The notes under the pieces were generated by a model, which did not search any database, had not been told where the DNA came from, and was given only the letters and a program-made list of their open reading frames with translations. Positions 8,073-10,079 of a stretch of DNA of 42,799 nucleotides are shown here, piece by piece. Location of the stretch: positions 1 to 42,799 of IMG/VR virus record IMGVR_UViG_3300005288_000094; one strand, written 5' to 3'. Made by a program: the position numbers and the translations under genes. The stretch comes from a virus. Within the stretch, counting starts at the first letter, position 1, and each line of letters begins with the position of its first letter.

Positions 8073-10079
8073 GTGGCGTCCGTCGCTGAGGTTGCTACTG
8101 ACTTTCAGGCGCGGCAGATCAGCCTTGCAGATCGAACCGCTGCGGCTGTGGTTGGTTTGTGGCGTGGCGTGAATCCGGCGTCAATGTCCGCGGGCTGGGG
8201 CAATGTCGCGTATCAGGCTGGCGTATTGGTGCAGCGGGCCCAGTTTGTAATGGCCGCGAATGTGGATCCGTACATGGAGTCCGTGGCGGGTGCGTTCGGC
8301 GCCGAGTCCATCACTGAGGCGGCACTGAGGCCCAATGGGTTCGCTGCCGGGTTCACTGACGACGGCCGATCCATGAACGGCCTGCTGCTGACGGGCCCGG
8401 TCAATGCCAAGCGGTCCATCGCGGGCGGCGCGACACTTACCGCTGCGATGGATGCCGGTGCTGCGGCGTTGCGGACTGCCGTGGAGTCGCAGATTGCCGG
8501 GGCTGGTTCTGCGGCGTCGATGGTGTCCATGTTCATGCGTGATGCACCACCGCCCGTGACTGCTGAGCCGATCAAGGGCGCTGGCGGGCGCATGTACATC
8601 AAGGGCTCGGATGGGCTCATGAAGCCGTACTTCCGGCCCAAGTCGTACGTGCGCATGGTGCAGGCGGGCGCGTGTTCCCGGTGCATCATCCTGGCGGGCA
8701 AGCGGTACGGCAAGGTGACGCCATTCGCTAGGCATCCACGCTGCTTCCCGGCCGGGACGATTGTCGCCGGCCCCGGCCTACTGGGCGCCACGCGGCGGTG
8801 GTACGAGGGGGAACTCACCACTCTCACTACCGCAAGCGGCGAGAACCTGTCCTTGACCGGTAATCACCCGGTACTGACACGTCGCGGGTGGGTTCCGGCG
8901 AGCCTCCTCCAGGAAGGTGACGATGTATTCCGCAGCGCCGGGACCGAGAGCGCTCACGCCCTCATAGTCCCAGACCATGATCAGGTGCCATCCCGCATTG
9001 AGGATGTATGGCGTTCGTTCAGCATGGCCGGCCTTGAGACTGTGCCAACCGCCGCCGAGTACTTCCACGGCGACGGGCAGGGCGGCGAGATCGACATTGT
9101 AAGGGCCGATGGCTCGCTGGGGGGTAACTTCCAGTCCATACTGTCGGCTGAGCATGGCGTAGAGCTCGGACTCTCCCTTGGATTGGGTCACTCCATTGAA
9201 TTCAACTCGCAGGGCGCGGCGGAGCTTGTCTATGGCGGGCATCTTTCGCTTGCGGGCGGCCTCGTTGGCGGCGCGCACTTGGAGCTTCCTTTCATCCTCG
9301 GTCATCGCGGCATTTCGCGTGACTTGGGCCTCGCCAGCGGTTCGCCGTTCGATCCCGGATTCCGCAAGGCGTCGGGCGATCACATTTCGCCCGACGCCAT
9401 ACTGGCGGGCGAGGGCATATTCGCTGGCGCCGGACTGATAGGCGGCAATGATGGCACTGACAGGAATCTCGACGGCCTTCCGCGTTGGGATGCCCCTAGC
9501 GGTCCTCTCACGATGGAGAACAGTGGCCGATACGCCAGCCTTGGCATTGATCTGCGGGATAGGCTCACCGGCCAGGTAGAGGCGGATCGCGTGGTCAAGC
9601 TTGTCCGTGCTGAGTTTAGGGGGCATGTGTACAGTCTCGATTCATCTGAGGGTTGGCACTCCGCCAACAATCTCATTGTATCAAATTGTCACTGCACGCA
9701 CATACCCGTTGACGAGGACATCGAGGACTACCCCGCGACGGACCCGAAAGCCTATTACGACTCACTGTCCCCTGGTGCCCGCGTGAAGGCGTTCGGCAAG
9801 GCTGGCGTGGAGGCTATCGACGCGGGCGCGGACATGAACCAGGTTGTCAACGCACGCCAAGGAATGTACGTCACCAAGTCGGGCCAGATGGCCACGCGCA
9901 TGGGGACGACGAAGCGCGGCCTGTATGGCGTGACGCAGACGGAGTTCACTAAGGATGGCGCGACGTCGAAGTATGGCCGCACGGTACAGGCGCGCCTCAT
10001 GCCTGAGGAAATCTTCAAGATTGCGCCAAGCCGCGAGGATGCCATCCGCCTACTGAGGCATTACGCCTACATTTTCTAA
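8073..10079 (+). CDS. MuF-type head morphogenesis protein interrupted by an intein (668 aa precursor)
   Basis: The start is GTG 8073 just after the portal stop. Residues 1-223 and 539-668 are the exteins (353 aa after splicing). The N-extein ends with the MuF core: CSRCIILAGKRYGK followed by RHPR. The C-extein begins CHCTHIPVDED, so splicing rebuilds the family motif HPRCHC. Residues 224-538 are an intein with its own evidence below. MuF proteins sit inside the head beside the portal and assist assembly or DNA ejection. Until splicing, the conserved Cys pair is separated from the HPR part, so the precursor should not fold properly. Gene order portal-MuF-scaffold-capsid is standard. Confidence 0.92.
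   Translation: MASVAEVATDFQARQISLADRTAAAVVGLWRGVNPASMSAGWGNVAYQAGVLVQRAQFVMAANVDPYMESVAGAFGAESITEAALRPNGFAAGFTDDGRSMNGLLLTGPVNAKRSIAGGATLTAAMDAGAAALRTAVESQIAGAGSAASMVSMFMRDAPPPVTAEPIKGAGGRMYIKGSDGLMKPYFRPKSYVRMVQAGACSRCIILAGKRYGKVTPFARHPRCFPAGTIVAGPGLLGATRRWYEGELTTLTTASGENLSLTGNHPVLTRRGWVPASLLQEGDDVFRSAGTESAHALIVPDHDQVPSRIEDVWRSFSMAGLETVPTAAEYFHGDGQGGEIDIVRADGSLGGNFQSILSAEHGVELGLSLGLGHSIEFNSQGAAELVYGGHLSLAGGLVGGAHLELPFILGHRGISRDLGLASGSPFDPGFRKASGDHISPDAILAGEGIFAGAGLIGGNDGTDRNLDGLPRWDAPSGPLTMENSGRYASLGIDLRDRLTGQVEADRVVKLVRAEFRGHVYSLDSSEGWHSANNLIVSNCHCTHIPVDEDIEDYPATDPKAYYDSLSPGARVKAFGKAGVEAIDAGADMNQVVNARQGMYVTKSGQMATRMGTTKRGLYGVTQTEFTKDGATSKYGRTVQARLMPEEIFKIAPSREDAIRLLRHYAYIF
8778..9626 (-). 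CDS. Vsr/EDxHD-like homing endonuclease encoded antisense inside the intein (282 aa)
   Basis: The protein has two helix-turn-helix-like units (about residues 10-47 and 53-93) followed by a basic linker and a Vsr-like nuclease core. The core shows GESELY (Glu152/Glu154), YNVDLA (Asp179), VAVEVLGGGWH (Glu188, His195), Arg204 and NAGWHLIMVW (210-219). This order matches the EDxHD/Vsr-type homing endonucleases represented by I-Bth0305I. Codons are in exact register with the intein: Asp179, Glu188 and His195 face intein Ile117, Phe108 and Val101. The C-terminal 36 residues, antisense to splicing blocks A/B, look unstructured. The start ATG (9624-9626) is antisense to intein His295; only a weak ribosome binding site is visible. 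It likely cuts intein-less MuF alleles. Confidence 0.88.
   Translation of the reverse strand: MPPKLSTDKLDHAIRLYLAGEPIPQINAKAGVSATVLHRERTARGIPTRKAVEIPVSAIIAAYQSGASEYALARQYGVGRNVIARRLAESGIERRTAGEAQVTRNAAMTEDERKLQVRAANEAARKRKMPAIDKLRRALRVEFNGVTQSKGESELYAMLSRQYGLEVTPQRAIGPYNVDLAALPVAVEVLGGGWHSLKAGHAERTPYILNAGWHLIMVWDYEGVSALGPGAAEYIVTFLEEARRNPPATCQYRVITGQGQVLAACGSESGEFPLVPPPRGAQ
9675..9683 (-). promoter_or_regulatory. Candidate extended -10 promoter for the antisense endonuclease
   Basis: On the minus strand the bases read TGATACAAT, an extended -10 (TGn followed by TACAAT, five of six matches to TATAAT). It lies about 50 bp upstream of the endonuclease ATG. On the plus strand these bases are the intein codons Ile312, Val313 and Ser314. 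No good -35 is seen. The surrounding codons are unusually AT-rich for this gene. The promoter is an inference. Confidence 0.35.

Follow-up and report, generated by a model that had tools for sequence, protein, structure and literature searches.

How can one piece of DNA serve as an intein on one strand and as a nuclease gene on the other? The question is raised by a gene for a MuF-type minor head protein in the viral record IMGVR_UViG_3300005288_000094 of IMG/VR (positions 1 to 42,799; this whole stretch of 42,799 nucleotides (nt) is referred to as the window). The head gene occupies 8073..10079 of the plus strand (668 codons) and contains an intein of 315 residues, from Cys1 to the C-terminal Asn (8742..9686, plus strand). 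On the minus strand inside this intein lies an antisense gene for a protein of 282 amino acids (8778..9626), arranged as two helix-turn-helix (HTH) units, a linker and a nuclease; it is identified by its open reading frame (ORF), by conservation of that frame in more than 60 loci, by a codon-position test and by an AlphaFold2 (AF2) model. In our reading the locus is a mobile intein that carries its homing endonuclease as a gene of its own, nested within it on the opposite strand, and we assign this reading a probability of roughly 0.88.

The head gene matches phrog_1522 (head maturation protease, 2.3e-61) and also phrog_15127 (head protein), and it is one continuous ORF, not a split intein or fractured gene. 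The intein is inserted at a conserved MuF motif (HPxC/CxC, the slash marking the insertion point). It begins with the Cys1 nucleophile (TGC, 8742–8744), contains a TxxH-like block (TGNH, within LTGNHPVL) and ends in VSN, with the terminal Asn (AAT, 9684–9686) followed by Cys+1 (TGT, 9687–9689); diverged members of the family retain Cys1, a TxNH-type block, block F, the C-terminal Asn and Cys+1. Pfam detects only weak intein similarity in the window's sense product, and intein profiles match the MJ0781 (KlbA) intein (5.9e-10) and PI-MtuI (7e-7). The AF2 model of the sense product is a HINT fold, best matched by the Mtu RecA intein (2in8, Z 12.1, root-mean-square deviation (rmsd) 1.7 over 106 residues) and by many other inteins. 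Both ends of the model are confident HINT structure, residues 126–245 have a predicted local distance difference test (pLDDT) score of 22–36, and profile searches found no nuclease match for this sense middle, i.e. no in-frame homing endonuclease. Given the HINT fold and the intact catalytic residues, the MuF precursor probably undergoes protein splicing.

The antisense ORF runs from an ATG at 9626 to a stop at 8778, covers 849 of the 945 intein bases and shares its codon boundaries with the intein, placing the two frames in exact codon register. An earlier note on this DNA had described this register together with a complete-looking intein; both descriptions stand, as do the coordinates it gave for the two frames and for Cys1, TGNH, Asn and Cys+1. 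The AF2 model of the antisense product has a mean pLDDT of 88, mostly above 83 over the stretch facing the intein middle. Its first HTH (residues 7–43, 9498..9608, minus strand) consists of helices 7–18, 23–30 and 34–43 and the second (residues 56–89, 9360..9461, minus strand) of helices 56–64, 69–76 and 80–89. This N-terminal part resembles paired, resolvase and Tc3 HTH domains in structure, with paired/Tc3 matches for the first unit and resolvase matches for the second. Pfam assigns a resolvase-type HTH (HTH_7, 6e-4) to the window's protein at the first unit, and finds resolvase HTHs in 19 of 41 homologues (best 1.3e-12). The element therefore has the DNA-binding arm expected of a homing endonuclease, with two HTH units in the window and three in one set of copies. 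DNA-binding units vary across the family: three HTH repeats occur in an actinobacterial genome contig (L080/L090; L numbers denote loci) and a divergent N-terminal part in Escherichia phage fEg-Eco06 (L069). Such variation in the number and kind of HTH suggests modular target recognition.

The C-terminal nuclease domain (residues 146–266, 8829..9191, minus strand) has a Vsr-type, PD-(D/E)XK-like fold and is most similar in structure to Vsr (1cw0, Z 10.2, rmsd 2.5 over 110 residues), followed by the catalytic domain of I-Bth0305I (3r3p, Z 9.5), 1vsr (Z 9.4) and 3hrl (Z 9.4). Foldseek alone returned nothing below E 0.001 for the antisense model, with 3hrl ranked first (7.7e-3) and 3r3p third (3.7e-2). 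The profile search that the earlier note had called for recovered both by sequence only, hmmsearch with the antisense profile matching 3hrl at 3.7e-4 and 3r3p at 1.1e-3. Pfam similarity to REase_MTES_1575 is marginal for the window's protein (0.0086) and clearer among homologues (MTES_1575, best 2.1e-8; DUF559, 3.1e-4). The two HTH units and Vsr-like core first recognised in the letters are thus borne out, and among the proposed active-site residues Glu152 and Asp179 are invariant in the 41 homologues and Glu188 is present in 40; His195 is not a residue of the family as a whole. Asn177 (41/41) and Gln170 (38/41) complete the family's conserved set, an arrangement nearer to DUF559/MTES_1575. 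We describe the nuclease as Vsr/DUF559-like and not as strictly EDxHD, because His195 is found in just 14 of the 41.

Intein-less alleles exist at the exact insertion site in close relatives. Gordonia phage Geodirt and others align contiguously across the site over 600 nt (97.7% in Geodirt), as do Salmonella phages such as GRNsp27 (600 nt, 89%). Most copies occupy the MuF motif that would read NCRC or HPxCxC once spliced, and the same element is also found at a second MuF site, before CTIDGKTRPSH, in Mycobacterium phage Sejanus (L012) and a viral contig (L066). Furthermore, an intein with its antisense nuclease interrupts a deoxycytidine monophosphate (dCMP) deaminase gene in Rctr197k (L013 616–1968, PF00383 5.1e-11) and in L065. 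The annotation of Rctr197k labels this deaminase gene a head morphogenesis protein, apparently owing to the intein. Phage homing nucleases can confer marker exclusion, which is established knowledge, and relatives with an intein-less MuF gene are abundant, hence the antisense nuclease might be real but serve to exclude competitor phages by cutting their head genes, or to regulate, and not to move the intein. We regard this as unlikely: presence and absence at one exact site with near-identical flanks fit homing, as do the tight pairing with the intein and the spread to other genes, and exclusion and homing are in any case mutually compatible roles.

A nested gene of this kind requires that both strands encode protein. 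All 57 compared loci, among them some with a guanine-cytosine (GC) content of 36–44%, lack any interruption of the antisense frame across the nuclease and of the sense frame across the whole overlap; these low-GC relatives rule out an open frame that arose by chance in a GC-rich genome. Sense TTA, CTA and TCA codons create antisense stops, and they make up 2 of 13,232 overlap codons versus 433 of 21,032 extein codons, with approximately 270 expected in the overlap. The two exceptions are the window ORF's own stop and a stop upstream of the start in L009, neither of which is inside the antisense gene. Scans of viral contigs yielded three well-sampled subfamilies: the window's own (Actino), a Firmicutes-like set (L027–L042) and an Aaphi23-like set (L043–L058). 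In their exteins the third sense codon position evolves fastest, and in the overlap the fastest is the first sense position, which is the antisense third, in all three of these diverged subfamilies. The difference between sense third and first positions is −0.112 (95% bootstrap −0.151 to −0.071), −0.161 (−0.204 to −0.120) and −0.052 (−0.084 to −0.021) in the overlap versus +0.127, +0.181 and +0.196 in the exteins.

Fourfold degenerate sites, mapped by region, divide the overlap into three zones, most clearly in the Actino subfamily, where the unconstrained level is about 0.6. In the first dual-coded zone (8781..9116) the N-terminal splicing half of the intein lies over the C-terminal half of the nuclease and both strands are constrained (sense 0.07–0.24, antisense 0.13–0.36 at fourfold sites), beginning past about intein residue 14. 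The middle zone (9117..9476) encodes the N-terminal part of the nuclease domain, the linker and the second HTH; here antisense fourfold sites are as free as extein third positions (0.57–0.63), sense fourfold sites are suppressed, and the sense frame, intein residues ~126–245, is open filler. Amino acid variation in this middle is 0.66–0.71 in sense versus 0.40–0.49 in antisense (Actino set). The second dual-coded zone (9477..9626) places the C-terminal splicing half over the nuclease N-terminus and first HTH, with values of 0.27–0.28 in sense and 0.24–0.26 in antisense. True competition between intein and nuclease is therefore confined to the two ends, and in the middle the sense frame need only remain open. 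The expectation that deleting either component would damage the other accordingly applies to the two ends and not to the middle. Within the window, the sense motif FHGDG..GEIDIV (9063–9104) is strongly conserved and lies opposite the YNVDLA..VAVE core of the nuclease; in the window's subfamily the antisense-silent sites of this motif show partial suppression, and it may be functional in the intein too.

The unconstrained filler in the sense middle would also be expected if the intein no longer splices and its frame stays open only because the essential gene that houses the selfish antisense gene tolerates the insert. Non-splicing insertions of this sort have been described, namely HNH genes of the ShiLan type concealed out of frame within phage methylase genes (PMC11855218). 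For the present element we consider this very improbable, as the splicing residues and blocks persist in diverged members, selection on the sense strand is evident in both splicing halves, the model retains an intact HINT fold and the insertion breaks the conserved CxC motif of MuF.

Signals for translating the antisense gene are embedded in the intein itself. The antisense start codon of many homologues is simply the block-F His codon (CAT) read on the other strand, and the bases before it are GGAGGTTATAAAC or similar, a Shine-Dalgarno sequence that arises because the block-F Leu is CTC. This codon is used in 36 of 44 loci (7.3 predicted from extein usage) and, in loci below 56% GC, in 24 of 28 (2.9 expected). 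The Shine-Dalgarno position in the window (9633..9638, minus strand) reads GAGACT, a weak match, and GGAGG or GAGG in most homologues. Part of the Firmicutes-like set has its antisense start further downstream, and the inteins of L027–L041 have ~14 additional residues in the interval from block F to the C-terminal HN. That selection acts on the intein alone, with facing codons making the antisense translation appear conserved, is the weakest alternative: the register does set position 2 opposite position 2 and produces partial mirrored similarity, but the codon-position and fourfold tests refute such an artefact, the fast position being antisense 3 in all three subfamilies, the reverse of the exteins, the middle varying more in sense than in antisense amino acids, the sense middle having low pLDDT while the antisense product folds like Vsr, and the Shine-Dalgarno codons being biased.

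Several observations weigh against a nested homing endonuclease. The window's own Shine-Dalgarno is poor, and a sigma-70 scan for promoter-like sites came up empty for the antisense gene, a negative that carries little weight in a genome of actinobacterial type. The scarcity of His195 blurs the exact catalytic set. Intein and extein divergence are correlated (r 0.85), which is not decisive for mobility, and long-term vertical inheritance is therefore also common. Under the reading we prefer, of a mobile intein with a nested antisense endonuclease, the plus strand would be translated into the MuF precursor, from which the HINT domain would splice itself out. The minus strand would be transcribed and the 282-residue protein made from the start opposite the block-F region, using the Shine-Dalgarno supplied by block-F codons. 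Its two HTH units and linker would read the MuF insertion site, the Vsr-type domain would cut the intein-less allele, and repair by recombination would transfer the complete element to it.

A second, unrelated case occurs at the same MuF site in Gordonia phages Nordenberg, Lennon and Barsten (L062 2511–5618, L063 2508–5618 and L091). Over 300 nt, the MuF flanks of Nordenberg and Lennon share 95–98% identity with the Fosterous flanks, and their intein is inserted at the same codon, measures 825 bp versus 948 bp in Fosterous and matches Hint_2 (1.2e-6). Its antisense strand encodes, again in exact register, a LAGLIDADG-like protein (AAYVAAFIDGEG) that matches phrog_5046 (2.2e-15, a family labelled HNH endonuclease) and I-MsoI (0.0013) and has no Pfam match. 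Relatives of this protein lie in Caulobacter phages and cyanophage PP, in genes with an endonuclease annotation, and a scan of viral contigs for this second nuclease turned up none. Between Lennon and Barsten, 51 of the sense codons 82–232 differ, of which 42 are synonymous in antisense and 5 in sense; in codons 1–40 this is reversed (1/20 antisense-synonymous, 13/20 sense-synonymous). Nordenberg and Lennon were the sole candidates considered for homologous inteins without the antisense gene, and theirs proved to be an intein of another kind that has an antisense nuclease itself. Related inteins with a broken antisense frame, which the earlier note had named as evidence that would count against it, were absent among those examined; all keep the nuclease ORF. 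Both the nucleases and the inteins differ between the Vsr-like and LAGLIDADG-like types, therefore the antisense architecture was reached at least twice. On balance, we favour the view that the nesting of homing endonucleases antisense to inteins is an architecture that recurs and was previously undescribed. At one and the same MuF site, at least two unrelated nucleases would have come independently to lie in exact register on the reverse strand of unrelated inteins; the splicing blocks, which in the Vsr-like type are dual-coded and supply the Shine-Dalgarno, would tie splicing and mobility together genetically.

The Vsr-like element is widespread in tailed phages. A tblastn search of annotated phages with the antisense protein matched 126 records, and wherever annotation or reading identified the gene concerned it was a MuF/head morphogenesis gene in reverse, except in Rctr197k. 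Hosts include Gordonia, Salmonella, Pseudomonas, Klebsiella, Escherichia, Vibrio, Aggregatibacter, Edwardsiella, Mycobacterium and Rhodococcus. The intein alone as query gave 132 records, mostly overlapping with this set. The element also occurs in dozens of viral contigs and some prophages, with both frames open at 36–69% GC, in eight more annotated phages (L067–L074), in one Microbacterium genome and in one Actinomyces metagenome-assembled genome; members of the window's own subfamily are mostly 61–66% identical to the window. The record of Salmonella phage PK2 lists the antisense ORF (L074 1411–2220) as a hypothetical protein, and most records leave it unannotated. When the antisense profile was run against 396 actinobacterial genomes, all full-length matches faced an intein on the opposite strand, and the other matches are just isolated HTH arrays or DUF559-type domains. 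A free-standing ancestor of the nuclease was sought among full-length matches in phages, plasmids, viral contigs and these genomes, and all those examined were the reverse strand of inteins; elsewhere the matches were limited to HTH arrays or DUF559-type nuclease domains.

Nucleases are also reportedly associated with inteins in the split-intein "fractured gene" arrangement of Dassa (2009). Canonical mobile inteins, e.g. in mycobacteriophage TerL (PMC5050341), share with this element the HINT domain, insertion in a conserved motif, empty alleles in relatives and a nuclease between blocks B and F, but there the nuclease is an in-frame domain, whereas here it is a separate opposite-strand protein overlapping the splicing blocks themselves. 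I-Bth0305I (3r3p) and other EDxHD or Vsr-like homing endonucleases likewise join a Vsr-type fold to multi-domain DNA binding; they are free-standing, intron-borne or beside split inteins, in contrast to the antisense position inside an unsplit intein, and their EDxHD His is not conserved here. I-DsqI of Didymium is encoded on the antisense strand of a nuclear group I intron (PMC9548176), a homing gene antisense to its splicing element and separately expressed, although it sits in a peripheral RNA segment in eukaryotic ribosomal DNA with no overlap with a protein-coding splicing domain. ShiLan-type insertions, in-frame and free of stops, also hide a nuclease in a phage gene by encoding it in a different frame, but here the nuclease is antisense and the insertion is a genuine HINT intein. 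The literature searched yielded no description of a nuclease encoded antisense inside an intein, a search whose reach excluded the preprint of Gosselin et al. 2025 (10.1101/2025.01.02.630785, 'Non-Canonical Architecture') on non-canonical actinophage inteins. Proteins matched through DUF559 and REase_MTES_1575 domains (L085, L087) share nuclease sequence similarity and have neither the two-HTH arm nor an intein.

Inteins commonly shed their nuclease after fixation, and the nuclease domain can be deleted without harm to splicing. In the overwritten design, the ends of the nuclease could not be lost without breaking the intein, and vice versa. This interlock suggests a testable explanation of how decay of a homing cycle can be prevented. 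The element further supplies a natural example, rare and well sampled, of opposite strands that encode two folded domains across more than 800 bp. Its conservation reaches from actinophages to the phages of Salmonella and Vibrio and to Firmicutes-like ones; it is mostly missing from annotation and provides a large set of candidate homing endonucleases with known targets.
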